From Mesaphorura yosii (Eukaryota; Arthropoda; Collembola; Poduromorpha; Tullbergiidae), in contig WIXG01000202.1 of assembly GCA_009869945.1 (NCBI GenBank), positions 82,075-146,074 of the forward strand: a DNA stretch of 64,000 bases, in the 5' to 3' direction. Every line of letters starts with the position of its first letter. Position 1 is the first letter of the stretch. Under the pieces are notes generated by a model, which was not told the DNA's origin, did no database searches, and saw only the letters and a program-made list of their open reading frames with translations. Shown here piece by piece: positions 2,055 through 33,806 of this stretch. The position numbers were made by a program, and so were the translations under genes.

Positions 2055-5000
2055 CGTCAGGACCGCTGAGGACGCGCCGGGCGTTCGTGATCTCGTCACT
2101 GTCACTGTCACTGTCACTATCAGTCAAGTCAATAGTCAAAGTCAGCTCAGTGCCGATCAGCCGATCACATTAACAACTATCAAAATCTCTGTGTCTTGAT
2201 ACTTTGAGCGAAAGACGAAAGTGTCATCCTTCAGCAGCGCCTGCCTTTGCCTTCAATGCGGTTAGCTTAGCGGTTCGGTGCACGTTGCCAATTCCGTAAC
2301 TAAAATTAGGATGACACATTTCAGATTCTGATTTCAGATTTCTTCGTCTGCGATGCGACTCTGCCTTGCCATTTAAAATGAGTGCTTATCATTTTCCGCC
2401 TGCTGCTGCTAGGCGAATCGCGAATCGAAGCTTTCTGATTTGGCTTTTGCCCACTACACAGTTAACAATTTAGTTTATGGTCTCTGCTGATAAGAACCAG
2501 CTACAGTCACAGTCACGTTGCAATCAATGGCGTGGCTGGTCTGGTGAATGGCTCGCTTAATCACCATCACAGTCACAAATGAAATGTAAATGTAATAATA
2601 AAGGTTACTGATAAGGTTGACTTTGTTCCAGTGCTTTGTCTGATTCGAAGTGTACGCGAATCGAAAAGCTAAATTGGCCTGGCGTGCCGTGGCCGTCAGG
2701 CTTATCTTTTTTTCACCGTGGCCGATTTTGCCAAGTTCGCTGGGCAGAAGCGCCGTATTTTGGAGCTCCGAGCACGTGGGGAAGCGTAATTACGTTACGA
2801 ATCATGAAAGTCAGGTAAATTGGCTCGTTAACAAGTACTCATTCACTAAATTACTTGGAATTGACCTCTAAACTGATCAGCAAGAGAAAATCTGTGAGCA
2901 CGAGTCGCTGTTCGCAGTCGCAAGTCGAAATCTCACTTCACTGCTGGTCTGCCGTCAACAAAATTGTCTTTACGCGAAGATACGCTTTCAAGTCTTTACT
3001 TACTTTTCGCACTGCACAGCACCACGCGTTCAAGTTTTTGGCACGCGTACGTTTCGTTCAGAAAATCATAACTTGCACTGGGCTTTAGTGTGGAGTCTTA
3101 TTGTACTGGCACTGGGACTTGTTTTGGTTGTCGTTGTCGTGATCATTAGAAGCAAGTAGCAAAATAAAAGTGATAAGAGGTTATGATGGCAAAATACAAA
3201 ATTATCGCCCACGCACACGCTTCGGAAATCGTACGAATTTTGTCTTCGTCACAACACAAAACGCCTTGCTTTGCGTTGCTTTACTTTGCTTTTTTGCGAA
3301 TTTGGAACTGAGGCCGAGTCCACTCTTGCAAAAATCGCAATCGTCTTGTGTGTCCTTCAGAATCATGAATCGCGAATGGCCAGCAGAGCAGTGCCAGCAA
3401 CAAGTTTCGTCTTTCGTGGTTTCTGATTTCGCATTATTACGCAAGCTTAGCTAAATTGAGTCTTTGAATCTCTTTGCCAACTGCCACGGCGACAAGATCA
3501 CTTGAATTTGAATAAGTTTCGCAATTCACCATAAATTCGCAATTACAGGTTGGCTGTTGAATACGTCGAGTTCTCTTGAAGGATTCGCAGCTGAATGCAG
3601 CAAAGAAGGAGAGCGGAATTTGAACAAGTCTCGAGTGTTCGTCCGCGTTGGATTTAATTGAGGGTAATTCAATTTGAATGGAAATGGCCTGACTTTCGCC
3701 TTTCGTTTTTCCTTTCCCTCGTCTTCTGCTCGCCGAGCTCGAGCGATTGTTATTCAATTCACACAATTATGGGTCATTTAAGCGGCCAGCCCAGCCGGTC
3801 TTGAGTCCTCGGTCTCAGTGTTCTTCAGCCGTCGAGGCGTGCTGGGTGAGAATTTTCTATTCAAATGACTCAAGGCAGGCCAAAGCTAAAGTAAAGAAAA
3901 GGAGTCCAGTCCAAAAGTCCAGCCAGCCAGCCTCGAGTGTTCTTCTCCAGTTCCAGTTTTATGTCCCACACAAGCCGAGCATACAAGCATAACTTTGAGT
4001 ATCAAGTCAATAAATCAGTCACCGTCACGGCCGTCACAAGCCTGCAATTCAATTTGCGATTCGCGAATTGAGTTCTGAATTCCAAAGTCATTCAATCTGT
4101 CCATCCATCAAGCCTGAGCCTGAAGCCTTCAAGTGGCGTGGCGTGGCGTACATAAAATAATCACGAGGCGATCGATGATCGATTTAATCACGAGCCGATG
4201 TCGATTATTATGCACATAATCACAATCACTGCAATGCACCGCAACGCACTATTTATGATTCATCAATGTGAAGTCTTCTCTTCTCTTCGCGCCGTGTCGC
4301 ATTAACGCCGAAATTATGACTGCATTAATTCTTTATGTGTTTATGTTAACGTCACGCACGGCACGGCCTTTGACGCCTGATGTCTGTGTAAACAAACCCA
4401 GCAGCCAGCAGCGAAGGAGTCGAACCGAGCACGTGTTGGGAGCCCATAAATCATTCTCTCTAATATTCACTTCCACTTTCTCGTCGTCGCCCGCGCCGTT
4501 GTCGTGCCATGAATTACGATAATGATGGCTGGCGAATTGGTGATGGTGAATATTGAATTGAATCTCCAATAATTGATTTTCTCGGTCCGCTTGCTGCACG
4601 CCACTTTCTTCTCAAGTCTTCAAGCGGCTTTTATTATGCATAAAATTTCTGCTTGGTCGCTGGTCGTCGGTTTTTGTGTCAAGCACTCTGAAAAATGACA
4701 AAACATAAATTACATTCAAATTGGAGGTATGCGATTGGCGATGGCCTTTGAGATATTGGCCAAGTTTGCAAACTTTGCAAACATGCAAATTGGGAGAAGA
4801 AACGAGTGCTGCGGTTTGGTTTTATGGTTTTGGTTTGGATTGCGATTTGGGAACTTTGGTTTTTGTCTTTCATATTTACATGGCTGGATTGGCACAGTAT
4901 GCAAAAGAACGGACGTTAAAATCACAAATCGAGATTCGGAAAACGGCAATGGACAAATGCAAATATGAGTGTATAAGTAAACAAAGGCCTGAAAGCCTGC

Positions 5001-24800: not shown

Positions 24801-27800
24801 CCATTTGCAGAAGCTGTCGTCCGTCCAGCGCCTCGGCGTGCCGTACAACTCCCGAAAGTACCGCTGGCGGGTTACGGCCGTCGGAGCGGCCGGTATGCTG
24901 TCCCGCACCCACTCACCCCTCTTCTACATGACCCTAGACGGTTTCAAAGAGCCCGGCCCACCCTCAAGCATCTTTGTGGCGCGGGAAATTGTAAACGACG
25001 CGTCAGTCGACGTGCTCATCGGATGGGAACCTCCGCCAGGTCCGTTCACGGCGTGTGTTGCAGCGTGCTGTGTTCCTCGAAACACGAGCGTGGTCTTTAT
25101 AAATTTGATCTTGAACACTGATTTTGGTCTCGTCACTTCTTCAGAGCGTCCGTGCGCCTACAAAATCAACCTTTACCCGATGGACACGATGGAGCACTAC
25201 CGAACACATCGGCTTACAGTAAGTAAAAGTAAAGTTGTCCATTGTTCTGAGTCCTTGTCAAGTCGAAGTGGAGTTCCTGGAAACTTAGGTTTCGGCTTCG
25301 GCTTTGAGCCGAGGCAGATGTCCGAGTTTCCAGAATCAAAGGCGCAAGGGAAGCTCTTTGGGTCTTTGATAGTTAATAGGCTTGTAGGAGGATTAAATTT
25401 TCTGTCTGTGGGCTGTAGCTTCTTTCATCTCGTCCACTGCATTCTCGTTTTCGTAATTCCAGGAGCCACTGGGCGTGAACTTCCACATGTTTCGCGGTCT
25501 CAAGTTTGGAAGCAAGTATGATGTGACGATGACCTCGCGGGGAGATAATTGGCGCTACGAAAGCACGCTCAAGTCGCAAAACTTCACAACGATCAGTTGC
25601 CTGGAAGCCCATGAACACCGCTTTGACAAATGTGGTGAGTATTTCGGCTCGGGTAACTCGGGCTCGGGTTACTTTGATCTGTTTTGCGACCTTGCGCTAA
25701 TTAGCGTGTGTAATTCGATCCTTTGATCACATTTTCCTTGTTGTCGTTCTCTTTGTCATTGACACGCCACGCCGCTGCAGACCCGCCGCCACCGAGAAAC
25801 ATCTCGCACCAGCTGCAGCTGGAGGAGAGGCAGCGCCTGGAATCGGACGAGCAGCAGCCGTCGAAGAGCAGCAGCAGCAACAGCAAGCTGGACGTGAAGC
25901 TGAGCTGGCTCCCTCCGCCGTACACATCGCCCTCGAATCCGATCCTTGCCTACACTGTCAGCCTTGGCCCGCCACTCAATGAAACGGCGACCGCTTCCAA
26001 CCCTAAAAACATCCTCTCCGCTGCTTTCTTCCGCATGAACCGCAACCACAACGTTCCCGGGGTAAGCAAAGCATCAAAGCACTAAGCAGAAAGAAGATTA
26101 ATTTGTTCATTTGGGGCTTAATTCCTGTTTTTACCCGGAGAGACAGGCGGCTTAAGGCTCATATGAGCTGGATAGAATGTTAGAATTTAACCGCTCCGAA
26201 GAGAAAACAGACTCTTTGTACTATTTACATACGTGGGCGAGCAAAATTTGTACAACTTGTTCTTTGATTTTGCCAACTCCATTTTCCATTTGCTATTTGC
26301 AGAACACAACGCACACTTACCTGAGCGAACTCCTGCCCAACACGCAGTACGTAGTCAAACTGACGGCGACCTCCGCCAAGGGAAAGTCGGCGCCTGTGCA
26401 GTATCACATGAGCACAAAATTGGGTAAGTAAACAGTAAATGGGCCCAAGCCTTGCTCAAGTCTGTGTAATCATCAATCACAATCTAACCGCACGAACACC
26501 TGAGAACAATGCAGACAATGGCAATGGCGCTACCGGACGTTTTCTTTTCAGCTGTCGAGAAGGAGGAGGTCGTCATGCCACAGACGAGCAACTGGCTGTA
26601 CTTGTCCGTCTCAATCTCGTGCGTAATCCTCATCCTCTTTGGCTGTCACTTTCTCCGAGTGTTTGCGCGAAAGAGGAAAGTCAAGAAAGCACGAAACCAG
26701 TATTTCCAGGTGAGCGACGCGGCACGCACCAGCACTTCTTTTGTTGTCCGTCCGTCCTCAGCTCCATCCGAGCTTTGAGTTTTGAATCCTGCTTTTGTCC
26801 CCGCAGACAATCGAGGATCGGGACGCTATTTCTGCAGACTGGTCGATCGTTCCCCTGCACGACGAATGCTACTCCCTCAGCGAGTTTTCAAAGGAGAAAT
26901 GGGAGATTTCGTACGACAAGATCGTCATGGGTGATGTTATTGGCCAGGGCGCCTTTGGCGTCGTGAGGCGGGCAGCGATGGCGCGCAAGAACTTTCTCGC
27001 GCTCGCCAAAAAGCTGCCGGGCGTCGGTTGTGGCGGGGACGTCGTGGGCGGGGCGTACGAGGCGACGGCGATGGAGACGGTCGCCGTCAAGATGCTCAAA
27101 GTCTCCGCCACGCGTGACGACCGGGACCAGCTCATCAAGGAGATTCTGACGATGCAGAACCTCGGCTCGCACGCGCAGATTGTCAGCCTCCTTGGCGCCT
27201 GTACGAAAGGTCGGAGTCTCTGCCTCGTCATGGAATTCTGTCCAGGAGGCGATCTCCTCACTTTCCTGCGAAAGGTAGGCAGGCTTCATTTCTTCCTGAC
27301 TTTCATTTGAAATCGACCTCCGAGACTTCCAACTCTGCCTTTTCATGCCTTCTTGCCATTTCTTGCAGGTTCGTGCCAAATACTGGCCCACGCTGGGCAT
27401 GGTCGACTCCGCCAGGTCACGCACACACCCGCCACTGCCGCAAACGAGCAACAGCGCGAGGACGTCCGTGAGCAGCACGCGAACGGCACAGAAGAGCATC
27501 GACAGCTCGCCGATTAATTACGCCGATCTCGAAGTGCTCTCAGACGAGTATTCGTCCTCGCCCATGGGCGATAAGCACGAATGTAAGCCAGATTTTTCAT
27601 TTCACGTGCGCCTGGAAAAGAAAACTGCCCGCATTTGTGGAGGTTCACTTCATTTGAAATTTGCGAGGCAGAAGCGAAAAATCACAAATTGTGAATTTAT
27701 TCAAATCGAGCCAAGCCGAGCTGAGCTGAGCGGTGATTGACATTTGACAATAAAACAGATACTACTGGAAATCTGGAAATGACGTGCAGACAAAAGATTG

Positions 27801-30800
27801 GGGCGTATTTTCACTCGTAAATAAGCACGGAATTAGAATTCTAGAAACCAAACACCGGATCAAAATTCAAAACTTGTTATTGTTTTTGGTTTTATGCCGT
27901 ATCCCTTTTGCTTTTACCTTCGCAGATGGAAACGCGCCTCGACCTGCCACAACCACGACGATGACGATGACGATGACATCGGCCTCCGCCGCGCCCGGCG
28001 TCGATTTCGAGGATGAAGACTGCCGGCCGATCGACGAGAAAGACGTGCTCTGCTACGCGCGGCAGATTGCGATGGGGATGGAGTACCTCGAGAAGAACCA
28101 CATCGTCCACCGCGATCTGGCGTGCCGGAACGTCCTCCTCCTCGGCGACTACAAGCAGGTGAAGCTGTCCGACTTTGGGCTGAGTCGAGACGTGTACACG
28201 TTCCACGTGTATCACCAAAAGTCCAACGGGAAACTGCCCATCAAGTGGATGTCCATTGAATCAATCTTCACACACGTCTTCACAAGCAAGTCGGACGTGT
28301 AAGTCAAAATTCCCACACATGCCACGCGCACACACTTTTCCAATTCTCGGTTCGCGAATGAATGGGCAGGCTCGCTCGAGTTGGCAAAATAATTCCGGGA
28401 ATGAAAAGTTAAAAAAGCATAAAACGATAACAGAACAGAGAAAACAAAGGCTGGGAAGTTGAGATCTTGATCTTGGGAAAAAACTTTTGGGACTGTACAA
28501 TTGCCATTGCCATTGAATTAATTTGGAGACCTCCCACGTCAGAGTCAAAGTCAACGTCAAAAGTTATGCTGGCGGGTGGGTGACGGAAATTGCGTCGCGG
28601 CACGGAATTTGAGTAATTCCGAGTAACAAGAAGTACTTTTGTCCAATTTAGAAGGATGAAAGTCGATGTCAAACTCTTGAGTTTCAATAATTTAATGTGA
28701 CAATGGCTTGCGCACTTTTAACTTCTGTCGCGTGGAGTAGAAATTCCTTGCCTGTAGAGGTGATGTGTGCTTTTGTTAATGGAGTCTGAATGAGCTGGCA
28801 TCTCCACTCTCGCAGCCGCAGCATTTTGCATTCATCTCGTCTTCTTTATAAGTGTTTCACTCCAATCTCGATTTTCGACTTTACTGCATTGTCTATTGCC
28901 TATTGTGTGTCACCGTTCTTAACTCAAGTGTCCTCGGGTCTCAATTTGTCAGATGCAAAGATGCGGATGCTGCCACGAGTAGCATGAAATTCGTATTTGA
29001 AATGCGAACGCCATACGCGAAATTCCACTCTGGAAAATGGGGAACTTTCGATTACAGCTGAAAAGCCGAAAACTCGCTACTCACATTTTATGACAATGGC
29101 TGGCAGCAGCGGAGTGGATCGATAAAATGAACGCAGTGATTGATTATTTCAATTATTTTAATTATTGCATTCTTCTGCCTCTCTTCTTACTGTTCTGAGT
29201 CTTGCTCATAATTAATATGATGGCACCGCCACCGCATGCGCGTGGCACGTGCAGCGTGTAGCTTAGAGTTACTTTCATTAATTAATCCTTACCTGAGCCT
29301 ATTGCCTTTGCTTCTCCTGCAGCTGGAGCTATGGAATTCTGCTCTGGGAGCTGGTCACACTCGGAGGAACGCCGTACCCCGGCCTCGGTAACACGGAGCT
29401 CTTTCAAGTGCTCAAATCTGGCTACCGCATGGAACGACCTGACAACTGCTCCGAGGAGCTGTAAGTGAATGCAAATATTTTCGTACGCTGTTACTTTCGG
29501 AAAGATTTCGACCAGGCAAAAATAAACCAAACAGAATGAAAAAGAAAGAAAAGATTACAAGTTCATTTGCTGCTGCTGTGGCTGCGGTTTTTTTTACGAT
29601 TTCTGTTTCCCAACCGGATTTAATTAAAGTGCTTTCCCAGCATACTTTCACTCTGCAGCTGTGACGTACGAATTGTTTACATTTGTTTCGATGCCCCACA
29701 CGAAATGAGATATTTTGCGAATGTTCCGGACAAAGAATGAAGTATGAGAAATATCTTTCCAAATTCCAGCTTTACAGATTGTGTAATAGTTTTTTGTACG
29801 CTAATCGCCAATCATTCATGTACAGGGTGGCAAATAATTAGTGACCCCCACCCCGCAGCCAATTCTGGTAAATTTAGGCACAAGTGCCATATATTAATCG
29901 AAAGCTTATGTCCAAGCGGATTTAGATCCAAAGTTTCAGATCAGTTGGACCACAGGTGCCGAAGTTATAAGCATTTTAGTGCAAGAAACATTAACGCGAT
30001 TTGTTTATTTTTAGGAAAAAATCGTTTTGCTTCTTAACAAAAAGAAAAAATTATTAACAAAGCATTGGCAAAAATTGATTTCTTTAAGTGATCATAAAAT
30101 CGACAAGGATAGTCCAGTCAATCTGAAAATTTGCACACGTATGCTGCTTGACACGGGCTATCCAACGATATGATTCACATGTACCTACCTACTCCAGATT
30201 TGGCTGTGGGGTGGGGGTCACTAATTATTTGTCACCCTGTAGCTAATTATATTAACTACGTAATTTTACATGCAAAAATGGCCAGCCTGTTTTGTAGCGA
30301 CTCTCAATGGAATGGAAAATTCCGTGACAGGTTCTAAAAATAGCGGATGTGCACTTTATTAGGCTTCCAGCATGATCCCCGTCATCATCATAAAATCGAC
30401 TAAACGACACAAAGCGTCATGGCTTATTATGATGAGCAAACGTGACAAAAGACTGGAACATGAAACTTGGAATGGAGAGGAAATTCCGACATCAATCTTC
30501 ATGTTTTAGCATTTCCATCCATGCATGCCAGGATGCGGGTGACAGACGCATGCAGTTTAGTTTCCAGCGACAAACCGCAGAAACAGAAAGCCTTCGTGAC
30601 GTATAACGCAGTTCTGCGGCTGAATCTGAAATTCCAGCTTCAAGCACGTGCGAGCCAAACACGAAGTAGAAGTACAAGCACGAACTTTCTCTATTACGTT
30701 AAGCTATGGTGATCTTTCTTTTATTACGCTCCATCGCGTCGGCTCCGTATGCGTCTTTCTCCTTTTATTACTCTGCTCCAGTGACACTGATCAATGGAGC

Positions 30801-31768
30801 GTGCAAATTGGTCGGCCTTCCACCGTATTCAGACAGAGTATTTTAATGGCGTTGTTATCGTGTGATCTGCTTTCTACCGTTTCAGATACGCTCTGATGAA
30901 AAAGTGCTGGCGGACTGCTCCCGCGTCCCGACCAAATTTCACGGAGCTGCGTCGCTACGTCGAGACGATGATGGATGCCGCCGAGCCGAGTCTCTACCTT
31001 TCACTCATGGCTGACTTGCCTACGGATTACTTTCACATCAACAGGTAGCGTAGCTCGTAACAATTCCGTGAAAATTTGAACTTTACTTTTATATTATGTT
31101 TGTAACATTTATTGTGCAGAGAGGATCTTCTTCACAGCCATGCGCGATTGGATGATGAGGGCGTTTCCGGTTCGAAGGACAGCGTGAGCGCCAGCAATTC
31201 GACCTCGAACCTGAAGCGGTCCCTCCAGCAACAGCAGCAGTTTAGCGAAAGCCAAGGTGAAAGTCGTAAGCACGCTAAAACAGCCGCTGGGTTTGGCGCG
31301 GACGTTGCTGAGAAAAGAGGTGGAAAAACAAAAACAAGCTCCACCGCAGGAAGAGAAAGTCAAAGCCAACCGAAACCGGATCCTGAAGCGACGTCGTATT
31401 TGCATGTTGACGGTGAAAGCATTGCAAATATAAGTGAAATCAGTGAAAGCATGAGCAGCAGTTGTTTACCGTCTCTGAAGAAAGGAGAAGAAAAAGGAAA
31501 GACGACTGCAGTGGGGAGCCCGCGGGCACGAGAAAAGAAAGCGGTGAACGAAGAAGACGAAGACGATGCTCAGCAGAGTTTGATAAAATCGAGAGATGCG
31601 GCAAGGCCAAAACCGCCGCCGCCGAGCCTGCAGCTGGAAAACAACATCGACAAAAATTGCAGCAACGGCAATGGCTTTCGGAGGCCAGGCTCCGGCGCTT
31701 GCAGGTCTCTGAAGGAGGCGGCCAACTCCGTGATCATCATCGAGAACAAAACTTACGACTTGATTTAA
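21860..31768 (+). CDS. Receptor tyrosine kinase with fibronectin type III ectodomain, Torso/RET/PDGFR-like, 16 coding exons
   Basis: Exons 21860-22186, 22279-22404, 23075-23131, 23282-23845, 24811-25039, 25145-25218, 25463-25634, 25781-26061, 26303-26423, 26552-26709, 26807-27274, 27369-27582, 27926-28298, 29323-29460, 30886-31044 and 31120-31768 encode 1369 aa. A basic n-region precedes a hydrophobic signal ([18 protein letters not shown]). Next come a Cys-rich region in exons 2-4, at least three FN3-like units ([35 protein letters not shown]), and a TM helix at about 665-687. The split kinase domain has GQGAFG (about 749), VAVK (about 798), HRDLACRN (about 992) and DFGLSRD (about 1013), so it should be catalytic. 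A ~27-residue loop separates the glycine loop from the lysine, and a ~110-residue Ser/Thr-rich insert splits the lobes. The tail is ~230 low-complexity residues. FN3 plus Cys-rich ectodomain and [18 protein letters not shown] fit Torso (PTTH receptor) best; RET is the alternative. Confidence 0.87.
29823..30239. mobile_element. MITE-like element with ~46-bp terminal inverted repeats and TA target duplication
   Basis: The left end reads CAGGGTGGCAAATAATTAG and continues through GTGACCCCCACCCC to about 29868. The right end is its inverted copy, ending ...TTATTTGTCACCCTG at 30239. The arms match at nearly every position over about 46 bases. The 417-bp element is flanked on both sides by TA (29821-29822 and 30240-30241), the target duplication of Tc1/mariner-type transposons. 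It has no transposase frame, so it is a non-autonomous copy. It sits in the receptor kinase intron 29461-30885. Confidence 0.85.
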
Positions 31769-32302
31769 TATTGCTCGCAAAGACTTTGAAGATCTCGTTC
31801 GCCAAATATTTTTTATCGATTTCATTAACGACGGTCGCCATTCCAGATAAGACGGGCTTCGAAGCGTTGACTACCTCTTGAGTTTTTTTAAGTGTTTATA
31901 TTAATTGTAAGACAGAAACTTGCAATTTGTCGAATTGTACCTGTCTCACTTTGTGTACCTTTAATGAAGCTAATTTGGTGCGTGCTACGATGAAAGGCAT
32001 TACAAAAACGAACTCTTGTGACCTGTACAAAAGAACCTGGTGAAATAAATACGAGAAAGGCGCAAAATGCGAAATGCTTGGCCATGATTTCTGGCACCAA
32101 AATTACGAGGAGGCAGATGAGAAAGATGAGCGGTGAATTTGTAGGGAAAGTTTGTTGAAAGAACAAAAGACAAAGTTTTGCATACAAATTAACAAACGCA
32201 CGTCAAGACTTGCGCGAGTGAATTTTAATTGCTTGGCATTATTATTTTGTTTCGGAAGAACTCAAGTACTGTTTATTCTTATTTAACTAGCCTTTCAACG
32301 TT
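31769..32302. other. Tail-to-tail intergenic region
   Basis: This segment holds the 3' flanks of the receptor kinase (+) and the astacin-DM9 gene (-). A minus-strand frame from 32085 begins MAKHFAFCAFLVFISP, which looks like a signal peptide, but the 65-codon frame has no other support and probably lies in a 3' UTR. Confidence 0.5.
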
Positions 32303-33806
32303 TCAGCAAGTCAGCAGTTGGAAATTTGAGCACTTGACCGCCTTCCCGCCAAAAGGCACGTACAGCGCGCCGACACGTGCCTGAAAGGAGCCTGACGTGA
32401 TCGAGTCCGCGCCGGCCACTTTGCACTTGCCGATGTACACCGGCTCCCGGTCGCCGGTCCGGCCACCGAGGATGGCGAAGGGGAGAATCGCGTTTATGGC
32501 ACCCCACGTAAAATTGTGGCCGCCTGGGCTGGTGAGGACCTCGAAGTTCCGCCCGTAAATGTACTCCTTGCCCCCGTCCGCGACCCAGCAATTCGTATGG
32601 CTCTCCGTCGTCTTCATTTTTCCGACAAGGAGCGCCCCAGCGGGCCCGTGGTACACCCGACACACGTACAGCGGGCGCTGATCGATGTCGTGGCCCGACT
32701 CGACTGGGTTGAAGTGGCTGGACTCGAAGGAGTGCGGCGAAGCGAGGAGGCGGTGGATGTCCATGAAGCGGTACGAGTGGCAGGCGGGACAGTCGTACAG
32801 GGCGTTCAGCTTTTCGAGGTCCAGCACGCTCAACGCCCCGGAACCGCCGGCGGTGGCGTCGTCGTCGCTGGAGCCGAGCCTGGCCGACGGGTGCTTGTGG
32901 GGAGTGAAACATTCGCGTGTGACAAACATGTGACTCGCGTAGTCGAAAACGATGCCTAGCGCGGCGGCGGAGTGCTCGTGGGAGATGGCGACGGCCTTGC
33001 TCCTGCTCGCCAAGGTCGCGTTGGAGTCCATGCCTGCGCCGTCGCCGGCATCCCTGAACTCATCTTCGTATTTGTCCAGTGCGGCAATGCATTCTGTCCT
33101 CAGCGGATTGTAGCGGACGTACTTTTCGCGGTCGACCCGTGTCTCTTCGTAGGCGAGGCCGAGGACGAGCCCCAGCGCCCGCTGAATGTATCCGTTCGTC
33201 AGGCAGTCGAGCCCCAGCTGAATTTCTTGCCCCTGCCCGCGACCGAAGCGGGCGCGCCCTGGTCGAAGGCCGATTTGGGAGGTGACACATATTTCGTCGT
33301 TGCGAGTAAATCGTACCCAAAACCGGTCACTGTCGCCAGGCGCCTTTTCCCTGAACCGGATGCAGGTTTTCTCGTGAATCAGCCTGAACGCCTGCTTGAT
33401 GAGCAGCTCGGCGTTGGCGAAGAGCGGGTCAATCACGAACGGCACAGTGCGGTTCGGCCAGAGTTGCGGGCCGTCGTCTAGAAGACGAAAAGCCAAGTTT
33501 AGAATGGAAAAATTAAATTAAATTAGCAGAACTGAAGAACTCCAATTTCAAAAATTCAATTTCCTCGTTTCCCGGGAATTGAAACTAACCGTCCGGTAAA
33601 TAAAGTTCACAAAGTTCATTCAAACGGCGAATTCGAAACTTACCTTCATAGCTGCCGTCGCCCAGGGCGCTCCTTCCTGCACGGGCACTGCTGCTGCCGG
33701 ATTGCCCGGAGCCATGAATGATGAGGACGATTCCGAGAATCAGGAGTGGGACGATGAGGACAGCGAAAATCCTCCAGCCGAGTCGTGCCGCTGAATTCCA
33801 GTCCAT
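32303..33806 (-). CDS. Membrane-anchored astacin-like pseudoprotease fused to a DM9 (DUF3421) domain, 2 exons
   Basis: Exons 33806-33644 and 33477-32303 give 445 aa. Residues 13-30 (IFAVLIVPLLILGIVLII) form a signal-anchor with almost no cytoplasmic part, so the protein is probably type II or secreted after cleavage. Residues 57-310 follow the astacin (M12A) fold: LWPNRTVPFVI, KTCIRFRE, IQLGLDC, then the helix normally HExxHxxGxxH followed by E-x-[ST]-R-x-D-R. Here the motif reads RALGLVLGLAY (154-164), followed by EETRVDRE. All three zinc histidines and the catalytic Glu are lost while Gly161 and the flanks stay. The Met-turn region (DYASHMF) is also altered. Residues 316-445 form a DM9 region with PLYVCRVYHG, NCWVADGGKEY, EPVYIGKCKV and LYVPFGGKAVKC. 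A proteolytic role is unlikely; ligand binding is inferred. An alternative donor at gttagt (nearer 33590) would add 18 residues in frame. Confidence 0.88.

Follow-up and report, generated by a model that had tools for sequence, protein, structure and literature searches.

A Candidate Pseudo-Astacin Joined to a DM9 Lectin-Type Domain in the Springtail Mesaphorura yosii

Introduction

Pseudopeptidases have been described among the ADAMs, in M14 and among other metallopeptidases, and the Met-turn is typically conserved in the pseudo-ADAMs, according to the accessible part of PMC11266112, whose single mention of astacin falls in an enumeration of the metzincins and which does not mention M12A. A natural astacin pseudoprotease is named in none of the accessible parts of PMC11266112, PMC4398375, PMC4932603, PMC11727788, PMC5712788, PMC9848320, PMC5753285, and PMC4826915, and neither an astacin pseudopeptidase nor an astacin with a DM9 architecture was found described in the open-licence literature. 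The present analysis concerns a gene located in a 64,000-nucleotide stretch of the genome of the collembolan Mesaphorura yosii (hereafter the window; GenBank assembly GCA_009869945.1, contig WIXG01000202.1, positions 82,075 to 146,074), the product of which combines an astacin domain devoid of its zinc motif with a DM9 domain. Sequence comparison supports the reading of this product as a pseudoprotease, in which the astacin fold would hold no metal and carry out no catalysis.

Astacin prosegments span 34–486 residues (PMC9848320), and the Figure 1 legend of the same paper presents many astacin accessory domains, DM9 being unmentioned in its accessible text. The M12A row in the accessible part of the Lucilia study PMC4826915 reads 'unassigned peptidases'. 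A sand fly midgut transcriptome paper contains the word astacin and one mention of DM9. The lectin CGL1 (CgDM9CP-1) possesses two mannose sites, of which site A is built from the side chains D22, K43, and E59 with the stacking residues H52 and F126, and site B from K114, E130, F55, and Y123 (PMC4932603). Mutational work revealed that mannose binding is abolished by D22A and K43A and is affected to a limited extent by H52A, and D22 and K43 are highly conserved across an alignment of 477 DM9 proteins (PMC5712788).

The Astacin Domain and Its Lost Zinc Site

The gene lies on the minus strand, as do all of its features given below, and comprises two exons and 1338 nucleotides encoding 445 residues, with a frame that the splice model and the translation show to be unbroken across the single splice, as the initial annotation had stated. 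Its membership in the astacin family is indicated by the Pfam Astacin profile (PF01400), which matches exon 2 in two stretches at 3.5e-20 and 72.9 bits, above the curated cut-off of 22.5. The astacin fold domain (residues 56–284; 32789..33475) contains four cysteines, at residues 93, 118, 146, and 284, which match in position the two conserved astacin disulphides C42–C198 and C64–C84, the bonds themselves being predicted.

At the zinc-motif site (residues 154–164; 33149..33181), the alignments place RALGLVLGLAY against the consensus HExxHxxGxxH. The changes of His to Arg, Glu to Ala, His to Leu, and His to Tyr affect all four catalytic positions, and the glycine is the only consensus residue kept. 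In a 63-row alignment of the protein with 62 bacterial astacins, R99, A100, L103, and Y109 (exon-2 numbering) stand in columns occupied by H, E, H, and H in at least 90% of the rows, and the motif also aligns without gaps with nine astacins of the same genome. The loss of all three zinc ligands and the general base, read by the initial annotation from this gene alone, is thus confirmed in both comparisons. The fold landmarks that it had listed are equally real: the motif Gly, R113, D115, R116, S181, and M183 (exon-2 numbering) are invariant in 63 of 63 rows including this protein, and the EXXRXDRD family motif is present as EETRVDRE, in which Glu, Arg, Asp, and Arg are kept and the last Asp is replaced by Glu. 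Its description of an altered Met-turn holds for one residue and not for the other, since the segment FDYASHMFV (residues 232–240; 32921..32947) reads SHMFV at the place of SIMHY, where the zinc-binding Tyr has become Val in the alignments and the Met is retained.

The bacterial set was derived from a search of prokaryote contigs, which gave 263 pattern matches and 123 astacin relatives, the best 80 of which were kept; the search patterns began with HE or HEQ and were blind to loci without these histidines. Sixty-three of the 80 loci were checked for stops and motif, 11 further loci and six Legionellales records standing outside this check, and 62 of the 63 match HExxHxxGxxH. The remaining one (L089), dropped before alignment, was later read as HELGHTLSYWH, with the ligands kept. 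Viral contigs yielded no relative of the fusion protein (one pattern match, none confirmed) and no relative of the C291 DM9 tandem (25 pattern matches, none confirmed).

The DM9 Lectin Half

The second domain is recovered by the Pfam DM9 profile (PF11901) on exon 2 at 6.2e-17 and 62.0 bits against a cut-off of 26.2, covering profile positions 1–114 of 115, so that both domains assigned by the initial annotation score above their cut-offs. It consists of two sub-repeats (32333..32689) and is connected with the astacin domain through the linker CPACHSYRF (32765..32791), which pairwise alignment matches to CGGCHAYRF in the related protein C456 discussed below.

Mapping onto CGL1 in two MAFFT modes revealed that D22, K43, E59, and F126 of site A correspond to D318, K341, E359, and F430 and are all kept, H52 being replaced by Trp. 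The second mannose site is lost: K114 and E130 are replaced by Ser and Ala and F55 by Asp, with Y123 kept. The glycan-binding head proposed at the outset is upheld, as far as residues go, by the retention of the side chains that form hydrogen bonds with mannose at the primary site of CGL1, and the domain is supported as a putative head for mannose-type glycans. In view of the conservation of D22 and K43 among the 477 DM9 proteins, their retention marks a normal DM9 domain rather than a special one.

When the DM9 part by itself was run against the PDB with phmmer, no DM9 lectin came up, and the single match, a galactonate dehydratase, had an E-value of 0.72; the exon-2 protein reached CGL1 (labelled Natterin-3) at 0.19, and a six-row DM9 profile that includes this domain finds CGL1 clearly, at 3e-31. 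The case for the DM9 domain rests on Pfam and the CGL1 alignment; the predicted local distance difference test score (pLDDT) of this part is below 50 in structure prediction.

A Related Gene with Zinc Ligands and the Other Astacins of the Genome

The genome searched amounts to 93 Mb in 1127 contigs, with the window on G000:C202. Its 66 matches to the RR cuticle domain Chitin_bind_4 indicate a probable arthropod or a near relative of arthropods, while COX1 yielded no match. The uniqueness of the astacin-DM9 combination, implied by the initial annotation, did not survive this search, as a second gene, C456 (G000:C456:29898-30878, minus strand), encodes both domains in one exon at Pfam scores of 98.8 and 98.1 bits, with all three His and the Glu kept. 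Its upstream exons (L012 and L051, spliced by eye) encode a signal peptide, which is followed by about 40 residues of prosegment. The motif of C456 is HELGHTLCMGH, with Gly changed to Cys, and its Met-turn is SIEHY, a natural variant in which the Tyr is kept and the Met is replaced by Glu. The C456 protein is probably, though not certainly, active, as judged from the retention of all zinc ligands and the Tyr. Among its mannose residues, D, K, H, and E of site A are kept with F126 changed to Tyr, as are K114, Y123, and E130 of site B, F55 being changed to His.

The two proteins share 122 of 366 aligned residues (33%), the CxxCHxYRF linker included, a degree of identity at which saturation of synonymous sites is expected. 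Among the 44 loci fetched with both Pfam families, C456 is the best match to each half of the fusion protein, scoring 2.4e-19 versus 1.7e-9 for the next gene in the astacin half, and 1.5e-22 versus 1.4e-8 in the linker and DM9 half. The pair is united at 95/87 in the astacin tree, in which long branches are flagged; the shared architecture is a better argument for their kinship than the tree.

The genome contains at least 37 exon-level astacin matches, and the motif was inspected at 24 places. HExxH is kept at 21 of these (20 of them observed directly, and one, L024 on C196, read by eye with an intron in between) and departs at three, namely the present gene, C84, and the middle copy on C527, the total loss of all four residues being confined to the present gene. 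Twelve of the 13 other matches adjoin inspected ones and look like their further exons, and the match on C37 stood outside the inspection. C84 (G000:C84:158432-159027; L020 and L052) reads HQLIQILGMNH, where the general base and the second His have become Gln and the third His is kept; its next exon retains SIMHY, and it represents a second pseudo-astacin candidate. The C527 gene (G000:C527:4223-4738; L005) reads HNFIHVIGFAH with Glu changed to Asn, and is the middle of three neighbouring astacins whose flanking copies read HEFIH; it is probably a dead copy in a tandem array.

DM9 was also encountered next to RING domains. A 317-residue open frame at G000:C656, about 3560-4515 (L057, frame +1), carries zf-C3HC4_2 at 39.6 bits and DM9 at 49.7 bits, and its product would resemble a ubiquitin ligase that carries a domain of lectin type. 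Open frames of the Sina-type RING adjoin DM9 exons at G000:C360:72000-73025 and in the region of G000:C21:250261-250467 (L058 and L040; 40.7 and 48.2 bits), which perhaps constitute further RING-DM9 genes with introns.

Membrane-Held or Secreted

A predicted type II signal anchor, IFAVLIVPLLILGIVLII, occupies residues 13–30 (33717..33770). The 18-residue hydrophobic run is preceded by two Arg, and the best 19-residue window, from residue 13, reaches a Kyte-Doolittle mean of 3.05, whereas none of those scanned from residue 61 onwards exceeds 1.0. The 25 residues that separate the run from the astacin domain show no FxGD latency motif by eye; given the prosegment lengths known in the family, the latency segment seems to be missing as well. 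Of the N-terminal anchor in the initial annotation, the hydrophobic run and its two Arg are present, and its anchoring role is plausible on hydropathy; the protein is probably, though not provenly, a type II membrane protein.

The best-surviving alternative, to which we assign a minor but real share of our belief, takes the hydrophobic run as a cleaved signal peptide and the product as a secreted glycan-binding pseudoprotease, which would act as an opsonin or decoy in haemolymph or cuticle. This reading gains from the ordinary short signal peptide of C456, read from its translation by hydropathy, and from HGSG before residue 35, a weak possible cleavage site found by eye. It is opposed by the length of the run and its mean hydropathy of 3.05, 18 hydrophobic residues being long for a signal peptide, and by the lack of a strong cleavage site beside the run.

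Decay, Residual Catalysis, or Error

A pseudogene of an astacin-DM9 protease, with a frame still open on its way to loss, would account for the disappearance of all catalytic residues, for the long branch (1.75 changes per column), and for the weak codon-usage signal that two of the four scored pieces give. Neutral decay was simulated from the present frame at nine divergences with 2000 runs each, transitions being set equal in frequency to the two transversions combined and indels being excluded. In none of the 18,000 runs was the frame open with all four catalytic codons changed; at 0.5–0.7 changes per site, the four changes occurred in 12–24% of runs, with a mean of 11–14 stops, which indicates that drift sufficient to alter these codons brings several stops. 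The fold residues, the four disulphide cysteines, and the hydrogen-bond side chains of mannose site A are moreover kept, the splice sites and poly(A) signal are intact, and the third-position guanine-plus-cytosine content (GC) is 0.78. Codon-position GC of the gene is 0.61/0.47/0.78, versus 0.48–0.62, 0.36–0.43, and 0.69–0.80 in four Pfam-supported genes, the second position thus being slightly high; third-position GC is 0.36–0.47 in four other stretches of the window, which are assumed to be non-coding and two of which overlap by 200 bases. Decay of the gene is consequently very unlikely, and the gene is probably under selection, as far as such patterns tell. The pseudoprotease proposed in the initial annotation is borne out by the ligands lost in the alignments, the intact frame, and this simulation.

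An enzyme that still works through another metal site or another mechanism is hardly credible either and is ranked slightly below decay. The Met-turn Met and the fold residues are kept, and C456, with HELGHTLCMGH and SIEHY, demonstrates that unusual active sites can persist in this branch; however, RALGLVLGLAY is devoid of His, Glu, Asp, and Cys, leaving aside the conserved Glu that directly follows the motif, and the switch Tyr is Val. Least credible of all is an error of assembly or base calling at the motif, to which the reliance on a single assembly might point. Both flanks are conserved, and the differences between them remain in frame while affecting the codons of the four catalytic residues and of the Tyr as well as most of the remaining motif. 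The genome search gave no further copy in which the motif is canonical, as the sole 100% match lies in the window and the next, C456, at or below 37%.

Proposed Function

That the zinc site is gone in its entirety while the primary lectin site is retained points to a recognition function. The joint reading, that the pseudo-astacin gene is a living gene in which a former enzyme has become a receptor or adaptor that recognises glycans, is accordingly given as the favoured one, with confidence somewhat above an even balance; the receptor or scaffold role offered by the initial annotation is an inference at this level.

Several observations weigh against this reading. In the absence of an alignment, the predicted structure of the astacin domain was unusable, at a pLDDT of 34; the good model of this domain therefore depends on an alignment of real astacins, which pulls it towards the astacin fold. 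The choice between anchor and signal peptide depends on hydropathy, and neither the present gene nor C456 is firmly placed in the tree when the other is left out. Codon-usage support is weak, with 0.078 bits per codon in frame for the whole gene against at most 0.032 in the other frames; the N-terminal astacin piece scores 0.060 in frame versus 0.069 antisense, and the piece from zinc helix to Met-turn 0.035 in frame versus 0.053 in another frame. The controls (TBC, TWIK, APS kinase, and C456) score 0.118–0.173 and are flattered by their place in the training set, outside which the present gene lies.

Under the favoured receptor reading, the gene would have arisen by duplication of a secreted astacin-DM9 protease, the signal peptide and prosegment being exchanged for an anchor. 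The product would be held in the membrane by its N-terminus and expose the astacin fold, the CxxCH linker, and the DM9 lectin domain outside the cell. The DM9 head would hold mannose-type glycans on microbes, cuticle, or matrix, and the zinc-free former substrate cleft would offer a binding surface for a peptide or a partner protein. Such a protein might serve as a receptor or adaptor, and it might perhaps compete for the substrates of its presumably active twin C456 or act as a decoy for them.

A more speculative extension, which we consider unlikely, is that the two form a working pair, in which a secreted active astacin-DM9 protease directed to mannose-type glycans is accompanied by a membrane-held dead twin, directed to them likewise, which would capture either the glycoproteins that the protease targets or the protease. 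If this were true, a lectin-guided protease with a pseudoprotease brake would constitute a regulatory principle of which we found no description for astacins. Independently of this pairing, a zinc-less astacin with an intact lectin site beside a twin with zinc ligands and lectin would be a natural experiment in the passage from protease to recognition molecule within one organism, and it suggests that DM9 lectins may steer or replace proteolysis at the invertebrate cell surface.

Gene Model and Locus

Exon 1 (33644..33806; splice model and translation) comprises the start codon, a 12-residue tail with the two Arg, the hydrophobic run, and a short linker. The ATG starts at 33806, with a purine at −3 and G at +4. 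The sole intron (33478..33643; 166 nucleotides, GT..AG) has the donor G|GTAAGT and the acceptor TTCTAG|ACGACGG and splits a codon after its first base. Exon 2 (32303..33477), open over 390 codons, encodes the astacin-like domain, the CxxCHxYRF linker, and the DM9 domain, and ends with the stop codon at 32305-32303. N-glycosylation sequons occur in the protein at residues 63, 207, and 376. An AATAAA poly(A) signal (32272..32277) follows 25 nucleotides 3' of the stop. The neighbour on the plus strand, convergent with the pseudo-astacin gene, is a tyrosine-kinase-type gene with its kinase domain at 27754-28302; the plus-strand open frame ending at 31768 is taken, without proof, as its tail.

Comparison with Known Systems

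The fold residues are common to this protein and the astacin family, MEROPS M12A, which includes crayfish astacin, BMP1/tolloid, the meprins, and LAST-MAM of Limulus. In contrast with these, it has no zinc ligand, general base, or switch Tyr, no FxGD prosegment was seen, and it has a predicted N-terminal anchor instead of a signal peptide and a C-terminal DM9 domain. CGL1 of Crassostrea gigas (PDB 5ID8/5MH1) belongs to the DM9 family by sequence and shares D22, K43, E59, and F126 with the present domain, which differs in the lost second site, the Trp at H52, an extra Cys, and the fusion behind an astacin domain, CGL1 being DM9 alone. C456 has the same domain order and the CxxCHxYRF linker and is the closest relative in both halves; it differs in its signal peptide, its prosegment, all of its zinc ligands, and the K, D, and E residues kept in both mannose sites.

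The same kind of zinc-site loss is known in a related metzincin family, among the pseudo-ADAMs (ADAM2, 11, 18, 22, 23, and 32; M12B). Table 2 in the accessible part of PMC11266112 gives QLLGLNVGLTYD for ADAM18 and QMLALSLGISYD for ADAM32, beside which the present protein reads RALGLVLGLAYE. The pseudo-ADAMs differ in that they belong to M12B and not M12A and possess a C-terminal transmembrane segment with disintegrin and Cys-rich domains and no lectin domain. Zinc-less ADAMs act as adhesion receptors, and by analogy the present protein is proposed to act in much the same way. Pseudometallopeptidases and DM9 receptors are hence known kinds of protein, and, as measured against the open-licence literature, it is their combination in the astacin family that appears to be new.
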